NCBI GenBank assembly: GCA_017459635.1
Contig: JAFUCO010000011.1
Span: 1 to 60,447 of the forward strand
Origin: Blautia sp.
Lineage (GTDB): Bacteria; Bacillota; Clostridia; Lachnospirales; Lachnospiraceae
Direction: 5' to 3'
Length of the DNA: 60,447 bases
Under the pieces are notes generated by a model. The model ran no database searches, was not told the DNA's origin, and saw only the letters and a list, made by a program, of their open reading frames with translations. Below are positions 17,283 through 39,235 of the stretch, piece by piece. Within the stretch, counting starts at the first letter, position 1, and the number at the start of each line of letters is the position of its first letter. The translations under genes and the position numbers were made by a program.

Positions 17283-17473
17283 ATGTCTGATGCCGGTCAG
17301 AAACATGTTAAAAATTTTCAGTTATTTATATATACTGAAAGGGTATATTTATGCACAGGCTATTCACGCGAAATAAACGTAGTCATGAATGAAACGGTTT
17401 AAGGTGATGAGCCTTGAGTCGTTTTTGTATATTACAGCAGAGTTTTGAGCTGCAGTGATCTTAATGGAAAAAC

Positions 17474-17608
17474 ATGGAGAAAACTACTGCTTCTTTTCGT
17501 GGAACAGCCATGTGCGGAAACGTATATGATAATAATGGAGAGCTCATAGCCGATGGCTATACCATGCTTTATAAAGATGGTGTGTGGCGGTCATGGGGAT
17601 GGTCATGA
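17474..17608 (+). CDS. small ORF, 44 residues, possible peptide with Trp-rich end
   Basis: A 44-codon frame begins MEKTTASFRGTAMCGNVYDN and ends DGVWRSWGWS. It has one Cys, a Gly/Asp/Asn-rich middle and three Trp in the last eight residues. There is no strong ribosome site (AATGGAAAAAC precedes the ATG), and an in-frame stop sits three codons upstream. It lies just ahead of the biosynthetic cluster and is the only coding candidate in the 410-bp gap at 17283-17691. It may be a second substrate peptide or simply chance; I hold it weakly. Confidence 0.3.
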   Translation: MEKTTASFRGTAMCGNVYDNNGELIADGYTMLYKDGVWRSWGWS

Positions 17609-17691
17609 CGCAATAATTGTGGTGCTTTTGGGGGACGATGGGAGGCTTTATAACATCCTGAAATAACTATAAAACAGATGGATATGCCGGC

Positions 17692-19215
17692 GTGAAGCTG
17701 TGGAAAAAAATGATAATTAAAAGAAAACGGCATTTATCTACGATCATATTGGTTGAATTGCTGGTAATTGTGGCAGCTATCTTTCTGATCTCGGCTCAGG
17801 GCTCATATAGATACCTTGCTTTCAAAAGCAGAAAAATGTATGAGGATACCATGAAGCTGTATACAGAGAAGGATATACAGTATTTTGAAGATAATCGTAA
17901 GGGTTCGCTGGAAGAAAGTATCGATGAATATCTGAACGAAGATATCAGTACGTATCAGTTTGGGGAAACAGGCTATATACTGAGGGCAGATGAGAATCTG
18001 GTCATTATCGGCTCAAACCGTACGGAGTTGATAGGCAAGACATTGCCGGAAGCCGGCTTTCCGGTGGAAAAAGGAGGGGTATATTCTCAGACTTTTTCTG
18101 CTGTCGTAGAAGGTGAGAAGGTATGCGCTTATGGGGATAATTCAGCGGGTTTTTTCATTTTTTATGTTATGCCCCTGGAAGAAGTTGATACGGACCCATC
18201 GGAAACAGCCCGGATTGTCATTGTGACAATGATACTGGTATGCCTGGCTTTATATATAGGAGCCACTGTCCTTATCAGAAAGAATGTTGTCAAAAGTATA
18301 AACAGCCTTACCGGGTCTTTGTCCCGCATCACGGAAGGAAACCTGGATGAAAGAGTAGATATTCGCAGTTCGATAGAGTTTGATTCACTGTCGGATAACG
18401 TTAATGCCACGGTGGACCGGCTTAAAGGCCTTATAGAGGAAGAGTCCAGGCGGATCGATGAAGAACTGGATTTTGCAAGAATCACCCAGTCCTCTTCACT
18501 GCCTTCTGTTTCGGCTCTGTCTGCCAGGAAGGAAATAGATATTGACGCATATATGGGCGCGGCCAGGCAGGTCGGCGGAGATTTTTATGATTTCTTCCTT
18601 ATCGGGGAAAACCGTCTGGGCATAGTGATCGCTGACGTATCAGGCAAAGGAATTTCCGCTGCACTGTTTATGATGCGCAGTGAAGCATTTATCAGGAACA
18701 GGGCTCTTCATGGAGGCACGCCCGCCGAGATACTGGAGGATGTTAACGGGTTCCTCTGCGAAGGGAATGAATCCCTGCTCTTTGTAACGGTCTGGTTTGC
18801 CATTCTGGATCTGGAAACAGGCAAAGGCATGGCTGTAAAAGCAGGACATACAGATCCGGTTTTCAGACGCGGGTCAGAGAGCTTTGAGACGGTCAAAAGT
18901 CAGAGCTTTCTGGTACTTGGCGCTATGAAAGGAGTTCGATATGAAAACACAGATTTTGAGATGAATCCGGGGGACTGCGTCTTTGTGTATACCGACGGTG
19001 TTACAGAAGCAATGGATAAGGATGGGGAGCTTTTCGGCAAAAAAAGGATGCTGGCTGCTTTGAACCGCGATCCACATTCCTCCGTCCGGCAGCTGATAAA
19101 GAATGTCCGCGCGGATGTTTCTGATTTTGTGGGAGAAGCAGATCAGTTTGATGATATTACAATGCTTTGTTTAGAGTATATAGGCAAAAAAGGAGATGTA
19201 ATAAATGAACAGTAA
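17692..19215 (+). CDS. membrane-bound SpoIIE-type protein phosphatase with HAMP domain
   Basis: A 507-residue PP2C-family (SpoIIE/RsbU) serine phosphatase with its own sensor. There is a membrane helix at about 15-33, an extracytoplasmic region to about 160, a second helix (IVIVTMILVCLALYIGATVLI), HAMP (SINSLTGSLSRITEGNLDERV) and then the phosphatase. Metal-binding Asp residues are visible in GGDFYDFF, IADVSGKGISAALFM, YTDGVTEAMD and FDDITMLCLEY. Such enzymes dephosphorylate STAS-domain anti-sigma-factor antagonists; a STAS protein is encoded two genes downstream. The GTG at 17692 has a weak ribosome site; ATG 17710 is an alternative. The stop overlaps the start of the next small gene by 11 bases. 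Confidence 0.85.
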   Translation: MKLWKKMIIKRKRHLSTIILVELLVIVAAIFLISAQGSYRYLAFKSRKMYEDTMKLYTEKDIQYFEDNRKGSLEESIDEYLNEDISTYQFGETGYILRADENLVIIGSNRTELIGKTLPEAGFPVEKGGVYSQTFSAVVEGEKVCAYGDNSAGFFIFYVMPLEEVDTDPSETARIVIVTMILVCLALYIGATVLIRKNVVKSINSLTGSLSRITEGNLDERVDIRSSIEFDSLSDNVNATVDRLKGLIEEESRRIDEELDFARITQSSSLPSVSALSARKEIDIDAYMGAARQVGGDFYDFFLIGENRLGIVIADVSGKGISAALFMMRSEAFIRNRALHGGTPAEILEDVNGFLCEGNESLLFVTVWFAILDLETGKGMAVKAGHTDPVFRRGSESFETVKSQSFLVLGAMKGVRYENTDFEMNPGDCVFVYTDGVTEAMDKDGELFGKKRMLAALNRDPHSSVRQLIKNVRADVSDFVGEADQFDDITMLCLEYIGKKGDVINEQ

Positions 19216-19372
19216 AGAAAATGAACAGAAAAAGAAAGCACTGTCGCCGGAGGAACTGGAAGAGATAACGGGCGGCTTAGACTGTGATATGACCATAGGA
19301 GAACAGTTAATAGAGGAGAAAAAGCTGGATATACCTCAGGCCGGTATTCCGGTCAGGTATCCCCCAAGATGA
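19205..19372 (+). CDS. double-glycine leader peptide, putative modified-peptide precursor
   Basis: A 55-residue peptide with strong translation signals (AAGGAG 9 bases before ATG). Residues 12-24, ALSPEELEEITGG, have the form of a double-glycine leader as in bacteriocin and RiPP precursors. The presumed core after GG is 31 residues, starting LDCDMTIGEQ and ending IPQAGIPVRYPPR. It has one Cys, several acidic residues and a Pro/Arg end. The gene overlaps the phosphatase stop and is followed by a stable hairpin, then by ligases, NRPSs and an exporter. No C39 peptidase domain is present on the exporter, so leader removal would need another protease. It could also act as a carrier scaffold. Confidence 0.7.
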   Translation: MNSKENEQKKKALSPEELEEITGGLDCDMTIGEQLIEEKKLDIPQAGIPVRYPPR

Positions 19373-19378
19373 AGGAAC

Positions 19379-19413
19379 TATAGTGAACGCCCAAAACCTC
19401 ATCGTTTACTATA
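19379..19413 (+). promoter_or_regulatory. hairpin after the peptide gene
   Basis: TATAGTGAACG (19379-19389) pairs with CGTTTACTATA (19403-19413) over 11 positions including one G-U. No T-run follows, so it is not a classic terminator; a stabilising or partial-termination hairpin behind a precursor-peptide gene would raise its level relative to downstream enzymes. Confidence 0.5.
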
Positions 19414-19486
19414 AGCATAAACATACGAGATATTGATATACGCGATCATTCGGAAAAAGAACAGTATTATGATGTGAGGAGTGGAA

Positions 19487-20680
19487 ATGCAAACAGTAAG
19501 ATTGCTTCAAAACAATGAAGACAGTGTGGTTATTGGATTTGAAGGTCGGCTTAGTGTTGACAATGCGGCCGAAGCCGAAAAGGAACTGTTCAGGATAAGA
19601 GAAGAAAACACACAGGGAACAATGGTTTTTGACTTCGATAAGCTGGAATACATTTCCAGTTCAGGACTTCGTGTGCTTCTCAAGGCAACTCAGAATGAGC
19701 GGGGAAAAAAGATTAAGATAATCAATGCTCCATCAGAAATTTATGAAATCCTGGAGGATACGGGATTTATTAGCATTTTTGACACTCACAAGGCTATGAA
19801 GAAATACTCCATTGACGGCTTTGAACTGATAGGAAGAGGCATGAACGGAGAAGTATACCGTATGGACAGGGAGAACATAATAAAGGTGTTCCAGAAGTCC
19901 ACGCCTCTTGAGAACATAGACCGTGAAAGAAGACTTGCCCAGCAGGCCCTTATAATCGGGATCCCCACGGCTATCTCATATACGGTCGTTATGGCAGATG
20001 ACAGGTACGGGATCGTGTTTGAGCTTGTTGACGCGGATACCCTGTCCACAACATTAAAGGAAGAACCGGACGAGTATGATTCATATGTCAGGAAATATAT
20101 AGACCTTTATAAATTTATCCATTCCTTAAAGGGTGATGCAGAAAAATTTACAAACATCAAGGATGTTTATCACGGTGCGATAGATTACTGCAGAAGCTAT
20201 TACAGTGAAGAAGAGATCAATAAGCTTAACGGACTTGTTGATTCCGTGCCCGAAACCGGGACACTGATCCATGGAGACTATCATCCTAACAATATAATGG
20301 TGCAGGATGGAAAGCTGATACTGATCGATATGGGCGATATGACCATAGGGCATCCGATATTTGATTTCCTGGCGACTGCAGCGACCCAGGTTAATCTGGT
20401 GAAGCTGAACCCTGCATTTGCCGAGCAGCATACCAGGATGCCGGCAGAAATTATCACCAGAACCTGGCGCAGGCTCATCGACAGCTATTTTGCGGACAGG
20501 AGCGACGAGGAAAAAGAGCGGATCGAAGAGCAGATATGTGATTTCTCAAAGCTTAAGGTGGCTCTGGCTCCTTATTTTGCACAAGGCGCGTCTGAGGAGA
20601 TCATACAGGCAAGCATTGCAGATGCAAAAGCCAACTTCTTTCCGCAGATAGACAGCCTTACCGGAGCAGTGGACTGGTAA
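19487..20680 (+). CDS. STAS domain fused to an aminoglycoside-phosphotransferase-like kinase
   Basis: A 397-residue fusion. Residues 1 to about 105 are a STAS (anti-sigma antagonist) domain with the phosphorylatable Ser of LEYISSSGLRVLL. The rest is an APH/choline-kinase-like fold: nucleotide-binding start FELIGRGMNGEVYRM with Lys in NIIKVF, catalytic loop LIHGDYHPNNIM and metal Asp in LILIDMGDM. The ATG at 19487 is 6 bases after GAGGAG, better than the GTG at 19481 which abuts it. The neighbouring SpoIIE-type phosphatase is its natural partner, so phospho-switch control of a small-molecule or protein kinase inside one polypeptide is inferred. The kinase substrate is unknown. Confidence 0.8.
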   Translation: MQTVRLLQNNEDSVVIGFEGRLSVDNAAEAEKELFRIREENTQGTMVFDFDKLEYISSSGLRVLLKATQNERGKKIKIINAPSEIYEILEDTGFISIFDTHKAMKKYSIDGFELIGRGMNGEVYRMDRENIIKVFQKSTPLENIDRERRLAQQALIIGIPTAISYTVVMADDRYGIVFELVDADTLSTTLKEEPDEYDSYVRKYIDLYKFIHSLKGDAEKFTNIKDVYHGAIDYCRSYYSEEEINKLNGLVDSVPETGTLIHGDYHPNNIMVQDGKLILIDMGDMTIGHPIFDFLATAATQVNLVKLNPAFAEQHTRMPAEIITRTWRRLIDSYFADRSDEEKERIEEQICDFSKLKVALAPYFAQGASEEIIQASIADAKANFFPQIDSLTGAVDW

Positions 20681-20707
20681 ATAATTACCGGGAGAGGTAT
20701 TTCATTC

Positions 20708-22063
20708 ATGAAAAGGATCGTTTTATATTCAAGCAACAGCAAACTGAGGGATAAAAGCAGCAACTGTACTGCTTATCCCCGATGGGCAAGGCAGTGGGAC
20801 GAGGCAGCGGCCCGCCATAGTGATTATGAAATATGGCTGGTGGTACAGCTGAACGGAAGATATTTCCTTGATATCTGTGATGGAAAGCTTGTGCAGGAGC
20901 CTGAAAGGATTCATGTAAAAGTGCTTCCGATGGAGGCAAAGCTGAAGGAATTTGTGGAGGCTGTATCTGCCCTGAGTCCTGACCTGGCCATAGCAATGCC
21001 GGGGCCTGTAAGCGGTTACGACTGGAACGGCATCCGGGATGCGGGAATCGCGGAGGCACTCCGGAAAAGAGGCATAGAAACCGTCTGTTACTCCGGGGAG
21101 ACTGCCCTTAACTGTTTTGACAAGTGGAGGACACATCAGATCCTGAAGGCAAATGGTTTCAGGATTCCCGAGGCATTGTACCTGCACCATGAGCTGTTTA
21201 CATCTTCTAAACAGGATGAGGTCTCTACAGGAAATGTTTATCAGGAATATATTCTCTGGGAAGTCGAGAATATGAAAATGCCCGTAGTGATAAAAAGCAC
21301 TACAGGTTCATCCTCAATGGGAATACATATCGCAAAAGACTATGAGGATGCGAAGAATTATCTTTTATCCGGGGAGCTTCTGGAGGATGCCCTTATAGAG
21401 GAATATCTGGATGGTGAAGAGTACGGAGCAGAGATACATGGTGATAAAGGACATTATGTAGTCTCACCGCCATACAGGATATTCAATACAGTAAAGAACC
21501 AGCTTAATGACCCGATGGGAGCAACGACACTGAAATACGGTCCTGTCCTGGATGAGAAGCTTCACATAGAGGATGTGAGAAGTGAACTTAAGAGACTGGC
21601 CGACATTATGGGCTTTTGCGGAATCGTAGAGGTCGACCTGGTCCTTGTGAAGGGTGAATGGTACATTCTTGAAGTCAATAACAGATGGTCGGGGCTGACA
21701 ACGCTGATCACCGCGTCACAGGGCAGGCTCCCTTATGAAGTGTATATTGAAGAAGCAGGCGGTGACTGCGCTTATTTAAACGATACAAAAAATCTGAAAT
21801 ATGCCCTGCAGTTTAAGATGAGGGAAGCGGATGCAGACACCATCAGAAAAATATCTGAAGAGCCCGGAATAAAGAGCGTTATCCAGTATGACTTAAGGCT
21901 TCCCGGGAGAGAACCATTTTCCTTCAATGATGCAGTAATCGGAGGATATTCCACAATGGTCGAACTGATAAGTGACTTTGAGCAGCTTCATCTCAGGTAT
22001 CCGGAGCAGATTTCGGAGATACTGGTTCAGGCTGTAAAGGAGAAGGAGGGCATATATGCGTAA
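20708..22063 (+). CDS. ATP-grasp ligase, first copy
   Basis: A 451-residue carboxylate-amine ligase of the ATP-grasp superfamily. The ATP-binding part shows PVVIKSTTGSSSMGIHIAK (about 193-211), EEYLDGEEYGAEI and the magnesium motif LEVNNRWSGLTTL (about 321-333). ATP-grasp enzymes activate a carboxylate as acyl-phosphate and join it to an amine, for example an amino acid. The last roughly 90 residues form an extra small domain also seen in the second copy at 37052, which has the same total length. The start lies behind GGGAGAGG, and the stop overlaps the GH3 gene by 8 bases, so the two are translationally coupled. Confidence 0.85.
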   Translation: MKRIVLYSSNSKLRDKSSNCTAYPRWARQWDEAAARHSDYEIWLVVQLNGRYFLDICDGKLVQEPERIHVKVLPMEAKLKEFVEAVSALSPDLAIAMPGPVSGYDWNGIRDAGIAEALRKRGIETVCYSGETALNCFDKWRTHQILKANGFRIPEALYLHHELFTSSKQDEVSTGNVYQEYILWEVENMKMPVVIKSTTGSSSMGIHIAKDYEDAKNYLLSGELLEDALIEEYLDGEEYGAEIHGDKGHYVVSPPYRIFNTVKNQLNDPMGATTLKYGPVLDEKLHIEDVRSELKRLADIMGFCGIVEVDLVLVKGEWYILEVNNRWSGLTTLITASQGRLPYEVYIEEAGGDCAYLNDTKNLKYALQFKMREADADTIRKISEEPGIKSVIQYDLRLPGREPFSFNDAVIGGYSTMVELISDFEQLHLRYPEQISEILVQAVKEKEGIYA

Positions 22064-23762
22064 TGAAAAAATAACTGCCGCCAACCGGAAAAGAATGGCC
22101 GAAGGAGCTGCGGATTTTGAGAGGCTTAAGGACAGATGCCTGAATCCCATGGAGGTCAACAAACAGCTCCTGCTTAAAATCATACGCGATAATGAGGACA
22201 CGGAGTATGGCAAAAAGTATGATTTCAAGAACATACATTCAATCGAGGACTTTCAGGAAAAGGTTCCTGTGACCAAATATTCCGATTATACAGAATACAT
22301 TAAACGGATGGTGAATGATGGTGAGGAGAATCTGATCTGTGCTTATCCGGTGGGGCATTTTAACGGTTCCTCGGGCACTACCGGCGACGTAAAATATATT
22401 CCCATGCCAAAGGAAATGATAGAGGTATATCTGGCATATGTCACTCATTCTCCGCTGGGAGTTCTGACAGAGGCTGTCGGAGATGGCTGGACAGACGGAA
22501 GAAGTGTCCGACTGGCGGAATGCCCTTCAGAGGTTTATTACCTGCCGTCAGGAGCCAGCTTCGGCGCCATTTCAAGCCATATGACCAGACACTTCAGGCC
22601 GAAAATTGAATACCTGTTCACATCACCTGATGAGGCGATTTTCCCGGAAAGCGGAACGAATACCAGGTATTTGCACGCAAGGTTTGCGCTTATGGATGAA
22701 GACGCGACAGGTCTGGTGGCTGCTTATCTGAGCTTTCTTTTACTGACACTCAGATACATCGAAAGCAGCTGGGAAATGCTGGTGAAGGACATCGAAACAG
22801 GCACCATAGATCCGTCTGTTGAACTGTCTCCGGAGGTCAGGAGTGCCTTAAAGGATAAAATAAAACCAATGCCGGAAAGGGCTGCAGTACTCCGTGAGAT
22901 TTTTTCAAAGGGTTTTGAAGAGCCTTTTGTACCAAAAGTATGGAAGAACATGAAATATGTCCTGGGAATCGGAACGGGGGGATTTAAGGTCTATGCCGAT
23001 GCGCTGCAAAGCAGATATACCGGGGACATTCCTTTCGTCAAGATCGGCATCGGTGCTTCCGAGGGTATTTTTACCACGCCTTACAGAGTGAACAGTGAGG
23101 ATACAGTACTGATACCCGATTCAGTCTTTTTTGAATTTCTTCCTCTTGACGCAGGTGATGATTTCTCAAAGATCGTTACGCTCGATGGCCTGGAGGAAGG
23201 CAAAGACTACGAGCTGATCATCACAAATATGGGCGGATTTTACAGATACAGGATGCGTGATGCCATCCGGGTAGTATCGAAGTTTGAGAATACGCCGACG
23301 GTGGAATTTCTCTACCGTATTGATCAGACGATCAATATACTGGGCGAGAAGACTACGGAGGCTACCCTGAGGGCTGCGGCAAACAATACAGCCGAATCCC
23401 TGGATCTTGAGCTGATCGATTTCAGTGTTTATGCGGATATAAAATCCACGCCGCCCAGATATCAGTATTTCCTGGAAATCGCCAATAAACCTGCCGATGT
23501 TCCGGCAAATCTGATCCGCAGTACACTTGAAAAGGAGCTGCTTAAACTGGCTCCGGCCTTTGAAGATCTGGTAGTGAGAGGATTATGCCAGAGACTGAAG
23601 GTGAATTTCCTGCAGGAAGATGCCTATGCGTTATGGAGAGATATAGCAATCTACAATGGAGCTAATTCCAATCAGTTAAAGCCGGTCCACATCATCAGAA
23701 CAGAGAATCAGAGGAGATTTTTCACCGGCATGACGGAATACAGTTCGGAACCCGTTCAATGA
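22056..23762 (+). CDS. GH3-family acyl-acid-amido synthetase
   Basis: A 568-residue member of the GH3 family, best known for plant auxin and jasmonate conjugation; the enzymes adenylate a carboxylic acid and transfer it to an amino acid. Visible motifs are HFNGSSGTTGDVKYIPMP (about 100-116, the P-loop-like adenylation motif), the IGIGASEGIFTTPYR region, GGFYRYRMRDAIRVV and LYRIDQTINILGEKTTE. These are all in the expected order and the length is normal. Bacterial GH3 proteins are known in siderophore and other pathways. Coupled to the ATP-grasp upstream, it probably makes an amide on the cluster product. Confidence 0.9.
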   Translation: MRNEKITAANRKRMAEGAADFERLKDRCLNPMEVNKQLLLKIIRDNEDTEYGKKYDFKNIHSIEDFQEKVPVTKYSDYTEYIKRMVNDGEENLICAYPVGHFNGSSGTTGDVKYIPMPKEMIEVYLAYVTHSPLGVLTEAVGDGWTDGRSVRLAECPSEVYYLPSGASFGAISSHMTRHFRPKIEYLFTSPDEAIFPESGTNTRYLHARFALMDEDATGLVAAYLSFLLLTLRYIESSWEMLVKDIETGTIDPSVELSPEVRSALKDKIKPMPERAAVLREIFSKGFEEPFVPKVWKNMKYVLGIGTGGFKVYADALQSRYTGDIPFVKIGIGASEGIFTTPYRVNSEDTVLIPDSVFFEFLPLDAGDDFSKIVTLDGLEEGKDYELIITNMGGFYRYRMRDAIRVVSKFENTPTVEFLYRIDQTINILGEKTTEATLRAAANNTAESLDLELIDFSVYADIKSTPPRYQYFLEIANKPADVPANLIRSTLEKELLKLAPAFEDLVVRGLCQRLKVNFLQEDAYALWRDIAIYNGANSNQLKPVHIIRTENQRRFFTGMTEYSSEPVQ

Positions 23763-23789
23763 TCGTTTAAGGCTATCGGGAGGAAGATT

Positions 23790-24863
23790 ATGGATTACAA
23801 AGTATCGGTTATTGTACCAATGTATAAGGCTTCAAGGTTTATCAAAGCAGCGGTAGACGGTCTCCTTAATCAGACTTTGAAAGAGCTTGAGGTTATCGTT
23901 GTCAATGATTGCTCGCCTGATGACAGCCTGGAAATATGCCGGAAATTATATGAAAATAATGAGCGGGTGCAAATCCTGTCACAGCCCCGGAATATGGGGC
24001 CGGGGGAAGCGCGAAATACAGGGCTTAAAGCCGCAAGAGGAGAGTATATAGCCTTTGCCGACATCGATGATGGCGTTTTAAAAAATGCTTATGAAGAAAT
24101 GTACCGCCTAGCAAAAGACCATTCAGATGCGGATGTCATTCACAGCACCGGCATGATTCTTCCTCTGGATAAGAATGATATGGACAATATCTATGATGTG
24201 GACAGTGAGTATTATCTGCCCATTTCCAGCGACAGGTATGATATCGTAAAGGAAGTAACGGTACTTTCGGATGACCTTAATGACAGGTATGAAAAGTGGA
24301 AAAACCACGCCTATCACTGGATGGTTGGAAACAAGCTTTTCCGAAGACAGTTTTTGATCGAAAATGACCTTCATTTTGGAGAGATCAGACTTTCCGAGGA
24401 TATGGTTTTCTGTTTTTCAGCTCTGTTTTCAGCCAGGACTTATGTACTCACTCCGGAAAAGTATTATCTTTACCGGATCAGCAACGAGTCTATTTCCCGA
24501 AGAGGATATACGACACAGTTTTTCAAAACGGCCTGCCATGCACTTTTTAATGTGTGCCCGGCTGTCAGAAAGACCCTGGATAAAGTGGAGTATTTCAGGA
24601 ACAATCCCAAAAGCTGCGATGGCGTAATAAAGTATATGATCGATATCCTGGAGCAGGAATTTGTAATCCCCGCATATCAGAACCTCGGGGAAGAAACGAT
24701 CCTGGAGGATGGACTCTTCTCCGGACTTTTGAATGAACAGTTTGGCAGAAACGCCGATTTTGTGAAGTACTCCTTTTTGGAGCAGCACCGTAAGTATCCG
24801 CCGACAGTCAGCTCCAACAGCATGCTGAATGTCGATGCTCTGCTGAAATATATAAATAAATAG
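23790..24863 (+). CDS. GT2-family glycosyltransferase
   Basis: A 357-residue family 2 glycosyltransferase: KVSVIVPMYKASRFIKAAVDG nucleotide-binding strand, LEVIVVNDCSPDDSLEI, NMGPGEARNTGLKAARGEYIAF and the metal-binding DIDD. Later FRRQFLIENDLHFGEIRLSEDMVF carries the acceptor-side ED motif. No membrane segment is evident, so it acts in the cytoplasm with a nucleotide sugar. A second GT2 domain fused to a GH3-like domain is encoded at 34869, and the two N-terminal domains look like paralogues. The acceptor is presumably the peptide or NRPS product; this is inferred from position only. Confidence 0.9.
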   Translation: MDYKVSVIVPMYKASRFIKAAVDGLLNQTLKELEVIVVNDCSPDDSLEICRKLYENNERVQILSQPRNMGPGEARNTGLKAARGEYIAFADIDDGVLKNAYEEMYRLAKDHSDADVIHSTGMILPLDKNDMDNIYDVDSEYYLPISSDRYDIVKEVTVLSDDLNDRYEKWKNHAYHWMVGNKLFRRQFLIENDLHFGEIRLSEDMVFCFSALFSARTYVLTPEKYYLYRISNESISRRGYTTQFFKTACHALFNVCPAVRKTLDKVEYFRNNPKSCDGVIKYMIDILEQEFVIPAYQNLGEETILEDGLFSGLLNEQFGRNADFVKYSFLEQHRKYPPTVSSNSMLNVDALLKYINK

Positions 24864-24894
24864 TTATTATTCACGACCCAGCCGCAAGCGGCCG

Positions 24895-24977
24895 GGCCTG
24901 AGCCCTCCATTCGGAATCCAGCCCTTAAGTGCTTCATCGCCGCTTTGCGAAAAGATTACTCATGAAGGGCTCAGGCC
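24895..24977. repeat. 12-bp inverted repeat flanking a 60-bp loop
   Basis: GGCCTGAGCCCT (24895-24906) and AGGGCTCAGGCC (24966-24977) are perfectly complementary and fill the 163-bp gap between the glycosyltransferase and the first NRPS. The loop contains CGCCGCTTTGCG. No T-run follows; it could be an RNA structure shaping expression within the operon or a remnant element. Confidence 0.6.
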
Positions 24978-25025
24978 GTGTAAGGAAATTTACTCTGCTA
25001 TCAAAGAAGGGACAGATAGAATGAT

Positions 25026-27935: not shown

Positions 27936-27956
27936 TCTTATAGCTTTACAGGATAA

Positions 27957-28091
27957 AAAACTGTCTGGCAGCAGTTTTTGACAGATTCAGGAGAGAAGCT
28001 TTTCGACGAGGACGAGGCGGATGCCGCAATGAAGGAACAGCTCTATTACGTTTTCAATATAATATTTAAGGAGTATTTAAACAGGCAGTGA
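27957..28091 (+). pseudogene. remnant C-terminus of an unidentified gene upstream of the exporter
   Basis: After an in-frame TAA at 27954, 44 sense codons lead to a TGA that overlaps the exporter GTG start (GTGA). The peptide contains SGEKLFDEDEADAAMKEQLY and ends FNIIFKEYLNRQ; it looks like the amphipathic C-terminal helices of a small regulator. ABC exporter pairs of this type usually follow a MarR- or TetR-like regulator gene with such an overlap, so I read it as the tail of a lost regulator. It could instead be a tiny gene starting at TTG 27978. Confidence 0.4.
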
Positions 28092-31614: not shown

Positions 31615-31745
31615 TAACTGTTCAGAACAGCCTGCAGCCCCTGCTGCAGAAGACGTACGAACATGACCCAACAGGCAAAATCCCATCGCCGAAAGAGATC
31701 TGCATGGATTTTTTGCCCGTATCTGTTCAGGTTCTGAACAGATAC
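31615..31745. repeat. dispersed repeat with AACAGGCAAAAATCC core, copy 1
   Basis: CTGTTCAGAACAG, CTGCAGCCCCTGCTGCAG, then CAACAGGCAAAATCCCATCGCCGAA...GCATGGATTTTTTGC, closing with TATCTGTTCAGGTTCTGAACAGATA. The central part recurs at 39577-39740 with about 80% identity over the shared block, and the closing hairpin recurs at 13231. It separates the exporter from the second NRPS. Confidence 0.65.
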
Positions 31746-31776
31746 GCTGCATAGAGATTATAGAAAGAGGTGTAGA

Positions 31777-34674
31777 ATGAAGATTGAATTATATTCAGAT
31801 TTTCTTATCAGAAACGCGATAGAGAAGGGAGATCAGGAGGCGGTCATCGCAGCAGATGCTTCCTATACCTACACGGAACTGAATCGTGCGGTAAACCGCT
31901 TTGCGAACGGACTTAAGAAGAGGGGGGTAAAGGCAGGGGACCGCGTGATGGTAGCGCTTCCCAAGGATTCAAAGCCCTTTGTAGCCATGTTCGGCATTAT
32001 GAAGATCGGCGCTGTCCTGATTCCTGTCGGCATGGATTATCCTGAGGGACGCATTAAAAAGATCAGGGACGATTCTGAGGCTGTCATGCTGGTCGGTGTA
32101 GAGGGCGGCATTGGAGATACACTGTTCGAAGACATTTTCAATGACGGAACAGAGGATGAGCCGGAGCGCCCGCCCATTGACAGCATGGCTCCCTGCATGA
32201 TCCTGTATACCTCAGGCTCCACAGGAAACCCCAAGGGCGTTATGCTCAGGCATCATGGCTATGTCGTTACAGGTGAACCCCTCGAGGATAACCTGCTTTC
32301 CTGGAATACGCATCTTTACGGGCACACCTTCCTGGGCGTGACTACTACGACTTTTGCGTTCTTCTATATGGAATACTGTTTTGCACTGGCAAATGGCTGC
32401 AAATATGTCATGGTGGACTTGGAGCACTCCAGAAGCCCAATGCTTATGGCGGAAGCTATGAAAGAGCACGGCGTTGACGTGATTGCCGGCACCCCGTCCC
32501 GTATCCTGCAGTATCTGGAGATTCCGGTATTTGAGGAAGCCATCAAAAACTGCCATATTCTGATAATCGGAGGCGAAAGGGTGCCTGTAGGCATGGCGGA
32601 GGCTGTTCATGCTGTGAGCCCGGATTGCCATATCCTGAACGGATATTCCCAGACAGAGGGCAACTGTCCTATTATCGTGGCTGAAGTTGAGAGCGCGGAA
32701 TCTCACGGCTTTGCCTGCCATGACTGGAAGCTGGCAGTTGTAGACAACTACGACAAGGAAGTAGAGAACGGAGTGAAGGGCGAACTGCTGCTGTCCGGCG
32801 ACAATATGATGGCCGGGTACGTAAATCTTCCGGAAGAGATGGAAGCCAAGACCGTATATCTGAACGGTGAAAAATACTTCCGCACCGGTGACTCTGTCAT
32901 AAGGTTTGATGACGGCGGTTATATTATTATCGGGCGTATGGACCAGCAGATCAAGCTGAGGGGACTTCGGATGGAGCCCGGCGAGATCGAGAAGGTGATC
33001 CAGAACTTCCCGGATACAAGGATCGAGAAGGCTGTCGTACGCGTAAACGTGATCCACAACACAGAGCATCTTTGCGCCTATTATACAGGCCTCCAGAAGG
33101 TCGATGAGGAGAGTCTCAGAAAGCATCTGAAATATGAACTGCCGGCCTACATGATCCCGGATTATTTCATGTTCCTGGAGAATATGCCGCTGAACCAGAA
33201 TGGCAAGATCGACTATAAAAACCTTCCGGAGATCAAGATCGATGACCTGGAGATCATTGCCCCGGCAAACGAGATCGAGCGCAGCCTGCTTGATAAATGC
33301 AAACAGATCGTGGAATTCGATGCCTTCGGCGTGACATCACCCCTGGAAGAGGTGGGCTTTACCTCGCTGACCTTCATTGAACTGGCGTCAGATGTGCTTG
33401 ATAATTACCATGTGGAGCTGAGGCTGACAGACCTGATGGCAGGCGGCTTTACGGTGCGCTCTATTGCTGACCAGATAAAGAACGCAAGTGTTGAGGAAAA
33501 GGCGGAGAAGAAAAAACTGGACAAATATCCGCTTACACCGCAGCTGTATCAGTTTACGACAGAAAACCCGATGGGCGATATGTACCGTAAGTTCACCTTC
33601 AAGCCGGAGTGGAACGACGCGGAGGCGATAAGGGCCGCTTTTGCAGGGATCATCAATTCATTCCCGTATCTGTATACCACTTTCCGGAAGGAAGGGGATA
33701 CCTGGTACCAGATTCCGTATACCGGAGAACTGCTCAGCGAGGCGGATTTCCCGATCATTGATGGGGAACCCACTGAGGAGGAGATCGATGCATTCTGCGT
33801 GCCTTATGACATTGAGACCGCAGACAGGCTCTTTGACATCCGTATCTACAGAGGCGAAAAGGTGATAGTGCTGATGCACATACAGCATATCCTGATGGAT
33901 CATGTTTTTGTGGAGAAGCTTGCGGGCTATATCAGCCAGGCCCTCCGGAAGCCGGATTTCAGGCCTGCAGAGCAGGTGGACTATTTCGAATATACCATGG
34001 ATGTCCTTGAGATGGGCGAAGAGACGGACAATCCCAATAAGCCGGAAACCACATCGGAAGCTCATCCGGTTGAGGCGCCGCAGAAGATGCAGGGCTATGT
34101 TGAGATAGGCAAGATGACATCTGTGCTGAACAAGTACAGGCTGCAGCCGGCCGATTACCTGTTCGGACTTACAAGCCAGGCATACCTGAACGTGATGGGC
34201 CAGGATGAAGCGGTCATTTTCGATATGTTCGGTGGAAGGAATGAGGCAAGATATTTCAACACCGCAGGTTACTTCCCGGTAAGGATACCGGTGCGTGTAA
34301 AGAAGGACCCGAAGTTCTACGAGCATGTGGGCAAAGACGTGGTGGCAGGCATCGCTGCAGCCCGCCCGGCGGATGACTGCTCTTACAGGGCCCTGGTCAA
34401 GAATGAATATGTATGGCCGAACATCACCTACAACTGCATGGAATATATTGAGGAAACCAAAGACTTTGAACTGATCTCGCTCTTCAGTAAACAGGAAAAG
34501 AGCTCAGCGCTTACAAAGGCCAACACACCGCATGTATATTTCTACTGCTTTATCATTGAGGATAAAGCTGCCGTGATCAATCTGCATTATGACCCGGCCG
34601 TTCTTGACGAGGAGAAAGCAAAGGAGATCCTCACAGAGGTCAGAAATCTGGCGGAGAAAAATGCTTTTATCTGA
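31777..34674 (+). CDS. NRPS, adenylation-carrier-condensation, second copy
   Basis: A 965-residue synthetase with the same A-T-C order as the gene at 25026. The adenylation domain shows MILYTSGSTGNPKGVMLRH, NGYSQTEGNCP, YFRTGDSVIRFDDGGYIIIGR, LRGLRMEPGEIEKVI and NQNGKIDYKNL. The carrier has LEEVGFTSLTFIEL (Ser about 528, GFTS in place of GGxS). The condensation-like domain has HIQHILMDHVFVEKL, where the Gly of HxxxDG is His, so its activity is uncertain. The A4 region TTTTFAFFYMEYCF again lacks the amino-group Asp. The two proteins are diverged paralogues and may work as a pair. The start follows AAGAGGTG. Confidence 0.88.
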   Translation: MKIELYSDFLIRNAIEKGDQEAVIAADASYTYTELNRAVNRFANGLKKRGVKAGDRVMVALPKDSKPFVAMFGIMKIGAVLIPVGMDYPEGRIKKIRDDSEAVMLVGVEGGIGDTLFEDIFNDGTEDEPERPPIDSMAPCMILYTSGSTGNPKGVMLRHHGYVVTGEPLEDNLLSWNTHLYGHTFLGVTTTTFAFFYMEYCFALANGCKYVMVDLEHSRSPMLMAEAMKEHGVDVIAGTPSRILQYLEIPVFEEAIKNCHILIIGGERVPVGMAEAVHAVSPDCHILNGYSQTEGNCPIIVAEVESAESHGFACHDWKLAVVDNYDKEVENGVKGELLLSGDNMMAGYVNLPEEMEAKTVYLNGEKYFRTGDSVIRFDDGGYIIIGRMDQQIKLRGLRMEPGEIEKVIQNFPDTRIEKAVVRVNVIHNTEHLCAYYTGLQKVDEESLRKHLKYELPAYMIPDYFMFLENMPLNQNGKIDYKNLPEIKIDDLEIIAPANEIERSLLDKCKQIVEFDAFGVTSPLEEVGFTSLTFIELASDVLDNYHVELRLTDLMAGGFTVRSIADQIKNASVEEKAEKKKLDKYPLTPQLYQFTTENPMGDMYRKFTFKPEWNDAEAIRAAFAGIINSFPYLYTTFRKEGDTWYQIPYTGELLSEADFPIIDGEPTEEEIDAFCVPYDIETADRLFDIRIYRGEKVIVLMHIQHILMDHVFVEKLAGYISQALRKPDFRPAEQVDYFEYTMDVLEMGEETDNPNKPETTSEAHPVEAPQKMQGYVEIGKMTSVLNKYRLQPADYLFGLTSQAYLNVMGQDEAVIFDMFGGRNEARYFNTAGYFPVRIPVRVKKDPKFYEHVGKDVVAGIAAARPADDCSYRALVKNEYVWPNITYNCMEYIEETKDFELISLFSKQEKSSALTKANTPHVYFYCFIIEDKAAVINLHYDPAVLDEEKAKEILTEVRNLAEKNAFI

Positions 34675-34712
34675 GAAGTGAGATGATGCTGTAAGAAGAA
34701 TGATTCCAGCGG

Positions 34713-34834
34713 AGGGCTGCTTTGCAGCGCTGCTCCGCCGGCTTCTTCTTGAATCTCTCAGGGGGATTTTTCGCAGCCTGCTGCGTGACAAACTCTGAAA
34801 GACGGGCTGATACCCCGCAGCCTGCTGCGGAGAT
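34713..34834. repeat. cluster of GC-rich hairpins
   Basis: The gap between the NRPS and the fusion gene contains GCGGAGGGCTGC-TTT-GCAGCGCTGCTCCGC, then CGCAGCCTGCTGCG twice (near 34774 and 34819, the second inside CCGCAGCCTGCTGCGG). The shared GCAGCCTGCTGC motif suggests a small local repeat. No gene fits here. Confidence 0.5.
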
Positions 34835-34868
34835 TGCTTCATTATGACAGGAGCAGAAAGGTTAAATT

Positions 34869-36995
34869 ATGGGAAGGCAATATGATTTGTCGGTGGTGAT
34901 TCCGCTTCACAACACGGACATCGGGCTTTTCACGAACTGTGTGAAGTCGCTTAAGGCTCAGACCATCGGATTTGAGAACGTGGAATGGGTTATTGTTCTG
35001 CACAACTGCAATCAGGAAACAAAAACAGGTGTGAGACAGCTGCTGGACGGAGAGGAGAACGTTATCCTGCACGAGCTTGAAAATGAGGTTCGCTCGCCTT
35101 CCAGCCCGAGAAATTATGGCATAGAGCGTGCGACAGGGACCTATCTGTCTTTTCTGGATGCTGATGATATGCTTACACCGGAATGCCTGCAGCTTGCTTT
35201 GTCATATATCAGCAAATCAGGGGCGGACCTGTGCCGGTTCAGAAAAATGATCAGGCTGGAATCAGAGGATGCTGTTTATATTAATGAGACAGTGCTTTGG
35301 GACCAGACGCAGGAAATGATCGTAACTGACAGAAATAACTGGGATCAGAAGATACTGTTTGCAGGAACCTGGGGAATGAGCACTGCCAATCTTTTCAGGA
35401 GAGAGCTGCTGATTGAAAACGGCCTGAGATTTGATGAGAACATCCGGTTTGCCGAGGATTATCATTTCATGCTCGGGGTGTACGGAGTGGCTGACAGAAT
35501 ATGCCTTGCCCCGCAGCTGATCGGATACATCTACATTGTGAACAGCCAGTCCCTGGTTCAGACAACAAAAATTACAGAAAAGCTTTTGATGGAATATATT
35601 GAAGGCTACAGGAAGGTTTTTGAACGGGGACTTGCAAACAACCTCTGGATGAATGAAACCATGGGAAGCCTCATGCTTATCGTCCTTAACTGGATGCGGG
35701 CCTGCCCTGATCTGTCAGCAGAGGGCAGGGAAAAGCTTAAGACTCAGCTTGGTCCATACATCAGAAGCCTTACTCCGATCATTCCGTCAAAGCTTTATCC
35801 CAGGGGAAGAGGCGACAGGATCAATACTCTTCTGACCAAATATATCCTCCGGGAAGAGCCGAAGGTCGAGACCTTCATTGAAAGAACGGATGAGGGAAAG
35901 GGAACAACCTTCGTTGAGAGGCAGAAGGATGCCCTGAAAAGGATATTAAGAAACGGAATGAACAGTGATTATTCCAGACGTTATGGCTTCAGGGATATTC
36001 TGACCTTTGAAGAATTCGAGCGCCGCCTGCCTGTTTCGGACTATGACACTTATCTTCCTATGATACGGCTTACCACGATGATGGCGGAGAGAGGGATCTT
36101 TACAGACAACGAGATCATCTCCTATGCGTTTGTGGATGGCGGGAATGAAGTGAAACAGCAGATTCCCCTGACGTACAAAGCGCTGGTGCCGTATATTATC
36201 GCAATGAGGAAAAGCATAGGCTGCAGCAAGACCTTCCTCGTGTCTGAGGCACAGCCTTACGAAGCCGACAGGCTTTCTCTGGATAATAAATACAAGAATA
36301 CGATCTTCGGAGTTCTTCTCAGGGAATATGAAAAAGAAGCAGAAAGCTTCGGAAGCGGCTATGCTGTTTTTACCACTCCCAAAGAATATCTTTTCTCGGA
36401 AAAGCAACAGGATATGGGCATACTGCGTTTATTCTATGCGCTCAGGGAGAAGAATGTGGAAACGGTTTTTGCGCCTGATCCCGAATCGCTTTGCACCTGT
36501 TTAAAAGAACTGGAAAACAGCTGGCAGAGCATCATTGAAAAAATAGGAGAATCCGATGAAGACAGGGCAGAGGAGCTGAGAGAAGTCTTTTCATCACAGG
36601 AAAGGCCTTCTCTGAGGCAGATCTGGCCGAAGCTTGAGAAGATAGTCTGCTGGAATGTGACTGATGAAAAGGTTCTTAACGAAGTAAGGCCATGGTTTAA
36701 GGATGCAGCATTTTCCAGAGGATATTGTGCGGATGCCTATGCCCTTTATGGGGAGGCTGATGCAGAAAGCGATGTGATTTCCCTTATACCCGATGATGTC
36801 TTCTATGAATTCCTTCCACTTACCGGCGGAGATGAAAAACAGGTTTGCACGGCCGTAAACATATCTGAGGGTGAGGAATACCGGGTGCTTATAAGCAATT
36901 TAAGCGGACTCTACCGTTACGATACCGGAAAACAGATAAAGTGTGTTAAGAAATCGGAACAGCAGCTGCTGGTCAGAATAGTTGCAGGAGAATAA
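34869..36995 (+). CDS. GT2 glycosyltransferase fused to a degenerate GH3-like domain
   Basis: A 708-residue fusion. Residues 1 to about 330 are a family 2 glycosyltransferase (LSVVIPLHNTDIGLFTNCV, SPRNYGIERATGTYLSFLDADD with DADD metal site, FAEDYHFMLGVYG). Residues about 345-708 align in order with the GH3 gene at 22056 (RNGMNSDYSRRYGFRDILTF versus DNEDTEYGKKYDFKNIHSIE; DDVFYEFLPLTGGDE; VLISNLSGLYRYDTG), but the adenylation loop is replaced by FVDGGNEVKQQIPLTY and the C-terminal domain is shortened. It therefore cannot use ATP as GH3 enzymes do and probably binds the acyl or peptide substrate for the sugar transferase. I know of no described GT2-GH3 fusion. Confidence 0.8.
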   Translation: MGRQYDLSVVIPLHNTDIGLFTNCVKSLKAQTIGFENVEWVIVLHNCNQETKTGVRQLLDGEENVILHELENEVRSPSSPRNYGIERATGTYLSFLDADDMLTPECLQLALSYISKSGADLCRFRKMIRLESEDAVYINETVLWDQTQEMIVTDRNNWDQKILFAGTWGMSTANLFRRELLIENGLRFDENIRFAEDYHFMLGVYGVADRICLAPQLIGYIYIVNSQSLVQTTKITEKLLMEYIEGYRKVFERGLANNLWMNETMGSLMLIVLNWMRACPDLSAEGREKLKTQLGPYIRSLTPIIPSKLYPRGRGDRINTLLTKYILREEPKVETFIERTDEGKGTTFVERQKDALKRILRNGMNSDYSRRYGFRDILTFEEFERRLPVSDYDTYLPMIRLTTMMAERGIFTDNEIISYAFVDGGNEVKQQIPLTYKALVPYIIAMRKSIGCSKTFLVSEAQPYEADRLSLDNKYKNTIFGVLLREYEKEAESFGSGYAVFTTPKEYLFSEKQQDMGILRLFYALREKNVETVFAPDPESLCTCLKELENSWQSIIEKIGESDEDRAEELREVFSSQERPSLRQIWPKLEKIVCWNVTDEKVLNEVRPWFKDAAFSRGYCADAYALYGEADAESDVISLIPDDVFYEFLPLTGGDEKQVCTAVNISEGEEYRVLISNLSGLYRYDTGKQIKCVKKSEQQLLVRIVAGE

Positions 36996-37051
36996 TAACA
37001 GGCAAATAATTCCAGTCAGCAGGAACAGGCAAACAGCAAGGAGAATGAGAC

Positions 37052-38407
37052 ATGAAAGTGGTAGTGTACAGTACAGGGTCTTCAATTGGAATGCTGAAAT
37101 ATGTAAACAGTTTTTCTGCAATCCCGACCCTGAATGAACAGTGGGCGCAGGTGCGCCGGCATTTCCCGGATTATGAGTTTATTATTGTTGCCACGGAAGG
37201 TACATCGCCTCATCTGGTGGACTATGATGAAGAAAAAAAAGAGATCGCACCGGATGGGGTGAAGCTTGTACTCCTTAAAGGTTCAGCAGATACCGACGCT
37301 TATGTTAAAGCCATCCGGGAGGAGGCTCCCTCCATAGCGATAGCAGCTTCTTATTTTGGAGGAGAGATGGACTGGGAGACTCTGAAGGATGCGTTGATTG
37401 CGGAGGATCTGAGAAAGGCGAGCATTCGCACGGTCTGTAATTCTCTGTTCGCGGCGGAGACATTTTTTGATAAATGGACTACCCATGAGGTGCTGACTGA
37501 GAAGGGATTTTCTGTAGCCCGGGCGACGCACATTCCGGCAGTATATCAGAAATTATCCAGGCAGCATCCTGACCTTTATTCGAATGTATATCTGGACCTG
37601 GCGTTTCACAGGATCCGCCAGATGCATTTCCCTGTTATTATAAAGGCAGCGGGAGCATCAGGCTCGGCGGGTATTTTTGTGGCAGAAAGTTTTGAAAAAG
37701 CCAAAGAAAACATTCTTTCCCGGGAGGAAGATTTTGATTTAATTATCGAAGAGATGCTTGAGGGCGAGCAGTTTGGCACAGAGATTCATGGTACGAAGGG
37801 GAATTATACTATCCTGCCTCCATTCAAATGCAGGCTCAACGACCAGGGTGTAACAGATACTCTCAATTATGTAAAGTACGGCCCTGTGACAGACCCTAAA
37901 TACAAGGTGGAGGAACTGCGCTCCATGCTGAGAAGGCTGGCTGAGGAAATGGGGCTGGAAGGCTGCGCGCAGGTGGATCTGGCTTTTGACGGTGATAAAT
38001 GGAGCATCATTGAGGTAAACCCGAGAATGTCGGGAATGACAGCCGGGTCAGCAGCCCTGGAGAGCCGCTATCCACTCGAAGTTGTCATTGAGTCCTGCCT
38101 TGATAAGGAAATCAATTATGATGTTCCTTCTATTATGGAAAAATGCCTGTATTTCAGAACAGTTGTCCAGTCATTGGATGAACTGTATGAAATGCGAAAA
38201 GAAGTACATGTAAAATACATGGAAAAGGGATCGCCCGACCTTGGACGGGATGACATAAAAATCATCGGAGCGACGATTGCACTGGGCGGCTTTGAGACGT
38301 TTGCAGATATGGCAGAGGAAGTAAAGCGGCTGGCAGCTGTGTATCCAAAGACAATTAATCAAAACATTGCCGCCTATGCCTGCAGAATCGCGGAATGTGA
38401 GGAGTAG
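37052..38407 (+). CDS. ATP-grasp ligase, second copy
   Basis: A 451-residue paralogue of the gene at 20708 with identical length. Shared landmarks include FDKWRTHQILKANGF / FDKWTTHEVLTEKGF, PVIIKAAGASGSAGIFVAE (about 193-211), EEMLEGEQFGTEIHG, LKYGPV / VKYGPV and the metal motif EVNPRMSGMTAG (about 319). The C-terminal small domain is likewise conserved. Two such ligases imply two different amide-forming steps or two amino-acid substrates. The ribosome site AAGGAGAATGAG precedes the start. It is followed after 4 bases by the phosphatase gene. Confidence 0.85.
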   Translation: MKVVVYSTGSSIGMLKYVNSFSAIPTLNEQWAQVRRHFPDYEFIIVATEGTSPHLVDYDEEKKEIAPDGVKLVLLKGSADTDAYVKAIREEAPSIAIAASYFGGEMDWETLKDALIAEDLRKASIRTVCNSLFAAETFFDKWTTHEVLTEKGFSVARATHIPAVYQKLSRQHPDLYSNVYLDLAFHRIRQMHFPVIIKAAGASGSAGIFVAESFEKAKENILSREEDFDLIIEEMLEGEQFGTEIHGTKGNYTILPPFKCRLNDQGVTDTLNYVKYGPVTDPKYKVEELRSMLRRLAEEMGLEGCAQVDLAFDGDKWSIIEVNPRMSGMTAGSAALESRYPLEVVIESCLDKEINYDVPSIMEKCLYFRTVVQSLDELYEMRKEVHVKYMEKGSPDLGRDDIKIIGATIALGGFETFADMAEEVKRLAAVYPKTINQNIAAYACRIAECEE

Positions 38408-38411
38408 ATAT

Positions 38412-39182
38412 ATGATCAGGAGAATCAGGCTTCCGCATCTGCACAATTTCAGGGACCTTGGCGGTTACGAGGCCGGCAGCTCCGCCACGGCATGGGGCAG
38501 GATATTCCGCAGCGACTGCCCGTCAAAGCTTGAGGCTGATGAGTGGCGCAGGTTTTCAGAGCTGGGAATAAAGAACATCATAGATCTGAGAAGTACTTAT
38601 GAAGCTTGTGGTGACCCTGTTTCGCCTCCGGAAACAATTGTATACAATCACTGCCGTTTTTTTAAGGAGGACGACAGTATAGAGGATAAGGAGCTGGCCG
38701 CACGAAAGTTTCTTGACAGCCTTTCCCTCGATTACAGCTTCATGATGAAGAATTCCCTCAGTGAGATGGCTGAGATACTGAAGGTTACAGTAAAGTGCCT
38801 GTCAGAAGGAAATGTCTGCTTTTTCTGCACAGCCGGCAAGGACCGGACAGGAATACTCGCTGCATCGATCCTGTATCTTTGCGGAGTGAGCAGGGAGGAT
38901 ATAATTGCGGACTATGCCGTGACAGAAATCTATAATGCCGATGTTATCATGGGCATGATCAATTCACTGCCTGAAGCTATGAAGTCCCGGCTGTCTCCGG
39001 CCTCGTTGGAACTTGCAGCTGCATCAAAGGCCGATACAATGAGCAGGCTCCTTGACTGGATGGACAGCAATGACTTCATCGCACTTATGGACAGGAATGG
39101 ATTCGGAAAGGAATTATCAGATACCCTGAGAAAACAGATGCTGTCATCTGGCAGTAATCACCGGGTCGTAAATAACGATTAA
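38412..39182 (+). CDS. tyrosine-specific protein phosphatase family (PTP, PF13350-like)
   Basis: A 256-residue phosphatase of the bacterial Tyr/Ser phosphatase family. N-terminal LPHLHNFRDLGGYEAG and GRIFRSDCPSKL are family hallmarks; the catalytic P-loop is CTAGKDRTG with Cys at about 139, preceded by Phe rather than the common His. The general acid and C-terminal helices are present and the length is normal. The ATG at 38412 lies 4 bases after the ATP-grasp stop with GAGGAG upstream. As the last gene it may remove the phosphate placed by the STAS-kinase at 19487, or act on a phosphoinositide-like or phosphorylated product; this is speculation. Confidence 0.85.
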   Translation: MIRRIRLPHLHNFRDLGGYEAGSSATAWGRIFRSDCPSKLEADEWRRFSELGIKNIIDLRSTYEACGDPVSPPETIVYNHCRFFKEDDSIEDKELAARKFLDSLSLDYSFMMKNSLSEMAEILKVTVKCLSEGNVCFFCTAGKDRTGILAASILYLCGVSREDIIADYAVTEIYNADVIMGMINSLPEAMKSRLSPASLELAAASKADTMSRLLDWMDSNDFIALMDRNGFGKELSDTLRKQMLSSGSNHRVVNND

Positions 39183-39191
39183 ATATGATCA

Positions 39192-39220
39192 TTGACAGAC
39201 AATACCCTCAATGCTATATT
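39192..39220 (+). promoter_or_regulatory. promoter of the cobalamin-regulated operon
   Basis: A perfect TTGACA (39192-39197), a 17-base spacer and TATATT (39215-39220), just upstream of the riboswitch. Confidence 0.75.
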
Positions 39221-39235
39221 ATTCGTTGAGAACAT

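Follow-up and report, generated by a model that had tools for sequence, protein, structure and literature searches.

In Methanobrevibacter ruminantium M1, the loci mru0066–mru0071 (described in 2010) place a nonribosomal peptide synthetase (NRPS) gene beside genes for serine phosphatases, an anti-sigma factor antagonist and a MatE efflux protein, and the authors proposed environment sensing, regulation and export for this locus (PMC2812497). An antiSMASH survey of the rumen gives 5,346 NRPS clusters, of which Lachnospiraceae account for 923, and includes archaeal (Methanobrevibacter) NRPS clusters, some of which resemble those of Firmicutes (PMC8241843). Two single proteins are also of relevance: OlsH, a bacterial GH3-like lyso-ornithine lipid synthetase that forms an amide from an acid and an amine in an ATP-dependent manner (PMC12493201), and MlaB, a STAS protein that binds the ABC ATPase MlaF and is needed for its assembly (PMC7367683). 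The locus described here is in Blautia sp. (Lachnospiraceae; assembly GCA_017459635.1), in a stretch of 60,447 nt analyzed as a whole (contig JAFUCO010000011.1, positions 1 to 60,447; termed the window). It is a run of 13 genes on the + strand (positions 17692–39182) encoding a SpoIIE-type phosphatase, a small double-glycine (GG) peptide, a STAS-kinase, GH3, ATP-grasp and GT2 enzymes, two NRPSs, an ABC transporter pair (ABC1 and ABC2) and a further phosphatase. ATP-grasp ligases and ribosomal peptides are also found together in one cluster in pheganomycin-type systems. Partner switching between phosphatase, STAS protein and kinase is usually ascribed to sigma-factor control.

The gene content points to an NRPS-type cluster for production and export of a small, amide-linked and probably glycosylated metabolite under a phosphate-based switch. 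A probability of about 0.6 is assigned to this reading. A first-pass annotation, made from the sequence alone, had proposed a biosynthetic system that includes an exporter pair and a phospho-switch, and this is in accordance with the findings; its suggestion that the product is perhaps built on or conjugated to the peptide is probably not right, as the peptide is not conserved with the enzymes. Open reading frames (ORFs) were taken from a simple longest-ORF caller. The host genome is 2.67 Mb and 66.8% complete, the window is its contig 43, and the host family is gut-associated. Neighborhoods of relatives span about 10 kb per side and several end at contig ends (L and G numbers are our handles for loci and genomes). 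A scan of genome contigs with the GH3 protein gave 25 loci; it also reached distant GH3 genes in Bacteroidota and Balneolales (L048–L054).

Close versions of the cluster are found in Pseudobutyrivibrio ruminis SIG312 (G362) and in two further metagenome-assembled genomes (MAGs; G356 and G361), one of them fragmented. The P. ruminis cluster (L076/L077) starts with a decayed SpoIIE, followed in this order by STAS, STAS-kinase, GH3, PGA_cap, GT2, ABC1, ABC2, NRPS1, a bimodular NRPS, GT2-GH3, ATP-grasp 2, ATP-grasp 1 and genes for a phosphatase and a phosphopantetheinyl transferase. G356 (L058/L081) shows GH3, GT2, ABC1, ABC2, NRPS1, a bimodular NRPS, GT2-GH3 and three ATP-grasp genes, and its contig ends at GH3. 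Partial versions are present in a second G356 locus (contig C70, L080) and in G361 (L078, L079). Most proteins of the orthologous clusters have 54%–87% identity to those of the window by BLAST. Lower values are seen for ATP-grasp 1 of G356 (49% and 50%), the phosphatase (50% in L080, 23% in L077) and the second NRPS (39%–41%). Since an equivalent set recurs in other genomes, the grouping of these genes is not due to chance. GH3, GT2, the ABC pair, NRPS, GT2-GH3 and the ATP-grasps stay side by side in the orthologous clusters, which was the check proposed at first pass. As judged from predicted gene content, the cluster is a recurring unit of biosynthesis genes with its own exporter and switch.

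The unit is rare. With the own genome counted, 2 of 299 family genomes have ATP-grasp 1 (E <1e-100), 8 of 397 family genomes have GT2-GH3 (E ≤1e-60), and 2 of 64 genus genomes have GH3 with at least 70% identity; any GH3 is present in 23 of 391 class genomes (38 matches). A variant in G369 (contig 48, L082) shows consecutive genes for an NRPS with a reductase-type end, ATP-grasp 1 (47%), a STAS-kinase (43%), a phosphatase and a MATE-HATPase protein; GH3 and the ABC pair were not found in the 20 kb read there. The own genome has a second GH3 gene that overlaps an A-T-C NRPS gene (A, adenylation; T, thiolation; C, condensation domain) with the A code IAKFVGNFH (contig 36, L057:13510–18140).

ABC1 and ABC2 appear to be the two halves of a heterodimeric ABC exporter, and the trees of the two subunits mirror each other. 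In a tree of 54 rows, ABC1 and ABC2 form one clade each, and both clades contain the same 12 loci in matching groups: the window, L058 and L076; L149, L154 and L156; L144, L145 and L147; L040 and L148; with L055 outside. The L055 placement is unsure because of long branches (the tree carries long-branch warnings for rows of L055, L134 and L150). Transporters with a C39 peptidase domain and their partners fall outside both clades. By BLAST, the pairs in L227, L228 and L230 show 40%–51% identity to their own clade and 28%–33% to others. Recurrent companions of ABC1/ABC2 are ATP-grasp or RimK ligases, STAS proteins and APH-type kinases, and L148 has an A-T-C NRPS as well. Genome G079 (L055:1–9906, L056:15539–20000) has ABC1/ABC2, a STAS-kinase, two ATP-grasps, SpoIIE and Y_phosphatase3, together with two proteins related to each other, each about 400 aa long and with no Pfam match; one displays the motif HALTDG and is possibly a stand-alone condensation-like protein.

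Both NRPS genes encode A-T-C proteins, as previously noted at first pass, and the most plausible reading is a single short assembly line divided between the two. Two independent A-T-C enzymes are less likely in view of the domain motifs and of the modules in relatives. The A-domain cores are intact and the carrier Ser and C-domain His are present (T motifs LGGNSL and VGFTSL; C motifs CHMIYDG and QHILMDH). The C domain of NRPS2 gives a Condensation match of 21.5 bits, below the family cut-off of 30.6, and is recognizable by its motif and its homologues. Relatives have a colinear line of A-T-C plus A-T-C-A-T-C, i.e. three modules, and the middle module is missing in the window. The T-C region of NRPS2 has 51%–57% identity to the last T-C of four relatives, compared with 21%–23% to their first T-C. 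Its A domain has 31%–35% identity to each of the eight A domains of the relatives and 33% to that of NRPS1. When NRPS2 is compared with the last module of relatives in steps of 40 residues, identity is 10%–52% up to residue 480 and 28%–72% beyond, whereas two relatives compared with each other are near-even along their length (55%–85%). NRPS2 is best explained by exchange of the A domain together with loss of one module, and may serve as a natural example of such a replacement.

The NRPS1 A code is CVTFFAAGT and CVTFIAAGT in two orthologues, and the position equivalent to Asp235 is Cys in all three sequences, that of the window included. Code positions were placed by the motif positions of GrsA. 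In the second NRPS of four related loci, this position is Ile in the first A domain (4 of 4) and Asp in the second (4 of 4; code DAMFSG..). By motif mapping, both A domains of the window appear to lack the Asp that usually binds the alpha-amino group.

The GH3 protein at 22056 keeps the full GH3 fold and the nucleotide motifs, the features of an amido synthetase. Its best match in the PDB is plant GH3-1 (E = 3.5e-54), and the nearest PDB entries are plant GH3s that conjugate auxin and jasmonate. These features are not found in the GT2-GH3 fusion at 34869. In all five window-type fusions (window, L058, L077, L079, L080) the SSGTTG motif is lost and the C-terminal domain absent. Fusions in other family genomes (L227–L230, L232–L234) are 770–877 aa long, and an SSGT-like motif is kept only in L232 and L233; in L231 the GT2 and GH3 halves are separate ORFs. 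The series looks like a graded decay of the GH3 half. Without the nucleotide motif and the C-terminal domain, the fused GH3 is probably not an amide synthetase. The first-pass view that the ATP-grasp and GH3 parts make amides fails for the GH3 half of the fusion, and the reading of both GH3 parts as active amide synthetases is rejected because of the same losses.

These features allow a scheme in which each catalytic step, the order of steps, the product and the target of the switch are predicted from sequence. NRPS1 would load an acid, probably not an ordinary alpha-amino acid, and its C domain would couple this to the acid loaded on NRPS2, whose terminal C domain would then release the chain onto a free acceptor. 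The A-T-C layout makes sense in this scheme because a starter module would be followed by a module ending in a releasing C domain. Further amide bonds may come from GH3 and both ligases of the ATP-grasp type, sugar may be attached by the GT2 enzymes, and the ABC1/ABC2 heterodimer would export the product. Phosphorylation of the STAS Ser, set by the kinase and the phosphatases (SpoIIE and perhaps Y_phosphatase3), may control production or export.

Features of a partner switch are present in the window: a PPM phosphatase and a STAS antagonist with a phosphorylatable Ser. In an alignment of 26 STAS-kinase fusions, all 25 rows that span the YxSS motif keep its first Ser; HxD is found in 26 of 26 and the later Asn in 25 of 26. 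Twenty class-wide STAS-kinase stretches (7–20 kb) show SpoIIE in 10, a separate STAS in 8, a MATE-HATPase protein in 5, a Y_phosphatase3-like protein in 2 and any HATPase in 10. SpoIIE is present in 1 of 20 GH3 stretches, which are a comparison set and not a random control. Phosphatases related to the Y_phosphatase3 of the window adjoin STAS-kinases in L082 and L056. From its predicted domains, the set of SpoIIE, STAS-APH-kinase and phosphatase is a widespread module. A HATPase partner was not found in the window with three queries (from L126, L204 and L084; E ≤0.01). There is a stand-alone HATPase on contig 88 of the own genome (L126), so that a partner in trans is possible. The STAS-kinase may replace the HATPase kinase locally in the window. 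That it does so in general is not tenable, as 10 of the 20 loci hold a HATPase in a SpoIIE or MATE protein and the own genome has the stand-alone one.

Several relatives encode a MATE protein with a C-terminal RsbW-like HATPase (L087:5664–7412, L084:12507–14249, L082:13504–15249, L204:7658–9415; Clostridia and a Methanobrevibacter MAG), and these genes lie near STAS, SpoIIE, STAS-kinase or GH3-type genes. The HATPase_c_2 match is clear in L082 (41.2 bits) and below the cut-off of 27.4 in the Methanobrevibacter protein (L087, 22.1 bits). Further fusions were recognized by BLAST label in L157, L197, L198, L203, L207, L232 and L233. A sigma-factor domain was not seen among the window proteins scanned, a subset of the window genes. 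Export may be the target of the switch because of these fusions of an RsbW-like ATPase to MATE, in a methanogen as well, and because of the MlaB-MlaF precedent. We tentatively consider a partner switch that acts on metabolite export and not on a sigma factor, with the SpoIIE-opposed STAS-kinase gating ABC1/ABC2 or the assembly line; it is a possible arrangement, held with less than even confidence. If true, partner switching would here control metabolite export post-translationally.

The 55-aa peptide looks like a real gene. It has AAGGAG upstream, overlaps the 3′ end of the SpoIIE gene by 11 nt, and displays the features of a GG leader by its sequence and in a shuffle test; the match to a bacteriocin-leader profile is weak (17.3 bits, cut-off 40). 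A loose GG pattern gives 2 matches among 609 small ORFs in 609 kb of loci obtained independently of C39 (although L151 among them has a C39 gene), where 0.3 is expected by residue shuffling, and 7 matches among 308 small ORFs in 235 kb of C39-type loci, with 0 expected. The second match of the non-C39 set is a pediocin-like peptide in L142 with the motif YGNGVSC. A search of PHROGs with the window peptide gave no match. ABC1 and ABC2 have no C39 domain and there is no C39 match on the window contig; the own genome has three, all on other contigs. On its contig 88 (L126, positions 1–20000), a C39-type transporter pair is found with STAS, HATPase and two SpoIIE genes, and L130 and L134 are similar. 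In G369 (contig 39, L128/L129) three GG peptides with CxxC and CxC cores are encoded in tandem behind ABC2, and a fourth small peptide, which contains a GG stretch, is encoded beside STAS; genes for radical SAM/SPASM, a C39 transporter, two SpoIIE, two GH3, PGA_cap and ABC1/ABC2 are also present.

Two alternative readings give this peptide a central role. It may be the scaffold of a ribosomal-nonribosomal hybrid, decorated by ATP-grasp, GH3 and NRPS in a pheganomycin-like manner. Its position in the run behind a ribosome-binding site, a GG motif above shuffle expectation, the independent G369 locus with its GH3, STAS, SpoIIE and exporter genes, and a GG peptide behind the STAS-kinase of L199 are consistent with this. 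We nevertheless regard the hybrid as very unlikely. Homologues of the peptide (E <0.1) were not found in 17 other genomes, and no GG peptide is present in the P. ruminis cluster, the sole orthologous cluster with a visible 5′ part (L058 is cut at its 5′ end). GG peptides occur in just 2 of the 14 loci with GH3 or GT2-GH3 and ABC1/ABC2, and no C39 domain was seen in two genomes with the cluster, G361 and G362, whose completeness is not given. The conservation expected of a precursor and its modifying enzymes is therefore lacking, the first-pass check that the peptide always accompanies the enzymes gave a negative answer, and a role as the conserved core of the cluster is ruled out. As the enzymes are kept together without the peptide, they belong together and the peptide is dispensable; it is probably an accessory and not the scaffold of the product. 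Alternatively, it could be a secreted signal that is sensed by the adjacent membrane SpoIIE and switches the cluster on. The overlap of the two genes would fit this, as would the shared stretches of GG peptides and SpoIIE/STAS genes in L128/L129, L199 and L126. However, the peptides are mutually dissimilar in searches (the G369 tandem set excepted), only L199 of the 20 class-wide STAS-kinase loci has one, and Pfam identified no sensor domain in the SpoIIE N-terminus; the signal role is thus quite improbable.

A third alternative is a surface-polymer cluster in which GT2, the amide ligases and the ABC pair would assemble and flip a glycoconjugate that bears amides, in place of a free metabolite. 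PGA_cap genes in the P. ruminis and G369 clusters, and several GT2 genes with an acyltransferase or carboxylesterase gene beside ABC1/ABC2 in L227, L228 and L230, agree with it. However, the 13 cluster proteins scanned gave no match to polymerase, undecaprenyl-sugar transferase or capsule export families, and the order of the NRPS modules favors a defined small product, so that this reading is rather unlikely. Several points weigh against the exported NRPS-type metabolite itself. The GT2 enzymes could act on a surface polymer instead. GH3 or GT2-GH3 lies beside ABC1/ABC2 in 14 of 15 Clostridia loci (the exception is L055), an association that comes mainly from GH3-type queries and is biased, since all loci except L055 were fetched with them. 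In the G079 locus, fetched via ATP-grasp, ABC1/ABC2 is present and GH3 was not found in the stretches read. Among 20 class-wide GH3 stretches, a fetched subset of 38 matches in 23 genomes, the ABC pair is missing from 13, and the 7 that have it come from two genera. The missing Asp235 depends on GrsA motif positions, with which an LgrA alignment agrees for NRPS1. In P. ruminis (L076:9318–10449) SpoIIE is shortened and an RsbW-like HATPase is frame-broken, with STAS and STAS-kinase open; the switch is partly decayed and hence not indispensable there.

The genes of the cluster are listed in Table 1. The start given at first pass (17474) falls on an ORF of 44 codons (17474–17608) for which support was not found.

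Table 1. Genes of the Blautia sp. cluster, with positions in the window
Feature	Position	Strand	Basis
Membrane SpoIIE-type (PPM) phosphatase with HAMP, likely sensor	17692–19215	+	Pfam SpoIIE 163.7 bits, HAMP 35.7 bits
Double-glycine-leader peptide, 55 aa (LSPEELEEITGG), probably accessory	19205–19372	+	Sequence, ribosome-binding site, motif compared with residue shuffle
STAS fused to APH-type kinase	19481–20680	+	Pfam STAS, APH; Ser, HxD and later Asp kept in relatives
ATP-grasp ligase 1	20708–22063	+	Pfam ATP-grasp_3 46.1 bits; alignment
Full-length GH3, putative acyl-acid amido synthetase, SSGTTG motif	22056–23762	+	Pfam GH3 N, M and C domains; PDB match; motif
GT2 glycosyltransferase	23790–24863	+	Pfam 110.7 bits
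NRPS1, A-T-C, predicted starter module, A code CVTYFACGT, no Asp235	25026–27935	+	Pfam, LgrA alignment, motif mapping
ABC1, predicted exporter half	28088–29848	+	Pfam; own tree clade
ABC2, predicted exporter half	29845–31614	+	Pfam; own tree clade mirroring ABC1
NRPS2, A-T-C, predicted terminal module, apparently foreign A domain (AFMAIGGCP)	31777–34674	+	Pfam, motifs, homologue comparison
GT2 fused to degenerate, C-terminally truncated GH3	34869–36995	+	Pfam, motif check
ATP-grasp ligase 2, paralogue of ligase 1	37052–38407	+	Pfam, alignment
Y_phosphatase3-family phosphatase	38367–39182	+	Pfam 141.5 bits; related proteins beside STAS-kinases elsewhere

All genes named at first pass are thus present on one strand by ORF calls and Pfam, with intergenic gaps of −41 to 194 nt. 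The mirror-image enzyme sets that had been noted around the exporter are borne out as pairs of distant paralogues (ATP-grasps 33%, GT2s 29%, GH3s 24%, NRPSs 28% identity). The G+C content of the cluster (0.456–0.511 in 3-kb steps) shows no signal of a foreign island relative to the rest of the window (0.397–0.509). A pattern scan of positions 20300–40200 gave 37 promoter-like sites (shuffles: 26.7, standard deviation 5.4) and 29 terminator-like sites (17.1, standard deviation 3.9). Most are intragenic and therefore were not used to draw an operon boundary; the top promoter-like site (39192, 11 of 12 positions) is downstream of the cluster. Just 5′ of the cluster, at 13831–17282, are genes named by eye as two FtsX-type-permease-like membrane proteins (28% identical) and an ABC ATPase.

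The first-pass annotation knew of no described cluster with this set of genes, and literature searches, with subscription papers mostly outside their reach, likewise matched none. The cluster may define a testable family in anaerobes that combines plant-type GH3 and ATP-grasp ligases with short NRPS lines, a shared dedicated exporter and a shared phospho-switch. It differs from the pheganomycin type in that the window peptide is not conserved with the ligases. The window GH3 reaches 76.1 bits with the OlsH model, whose cut-off is 620, and, unlike OlsH, is considered here as part of an NRPS cluster. The rumen survey, in its available part, gives classes and counts and not the gene set of the window or a product (PMC8241843). 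MlaB-MlaF is a precedent for a STAS protein acting on an ABC ATPase, and hence for a switch from STAS to exporter; Mla, however, transports lipids, and its STAS protein stands alone with no kinase fused and with phosphorylation unproven, whereas the window STAS is fused to a kinase (PMC7367683). The phospho-switch had been counted as part of the novelty of the cluster. Its genes are present, but M. ruminantium had already provided an example of a switch next to an NRPS (PMC2812497). GH3, ATP-grasp, GT2 and a double-glycine peptide are not mentioned in the available part of that account; the exporter there is MatE, in contrast to the ABC pair of the window, and the NRPS is of the C-A-T type with a terminal release domain (PMC2812497).

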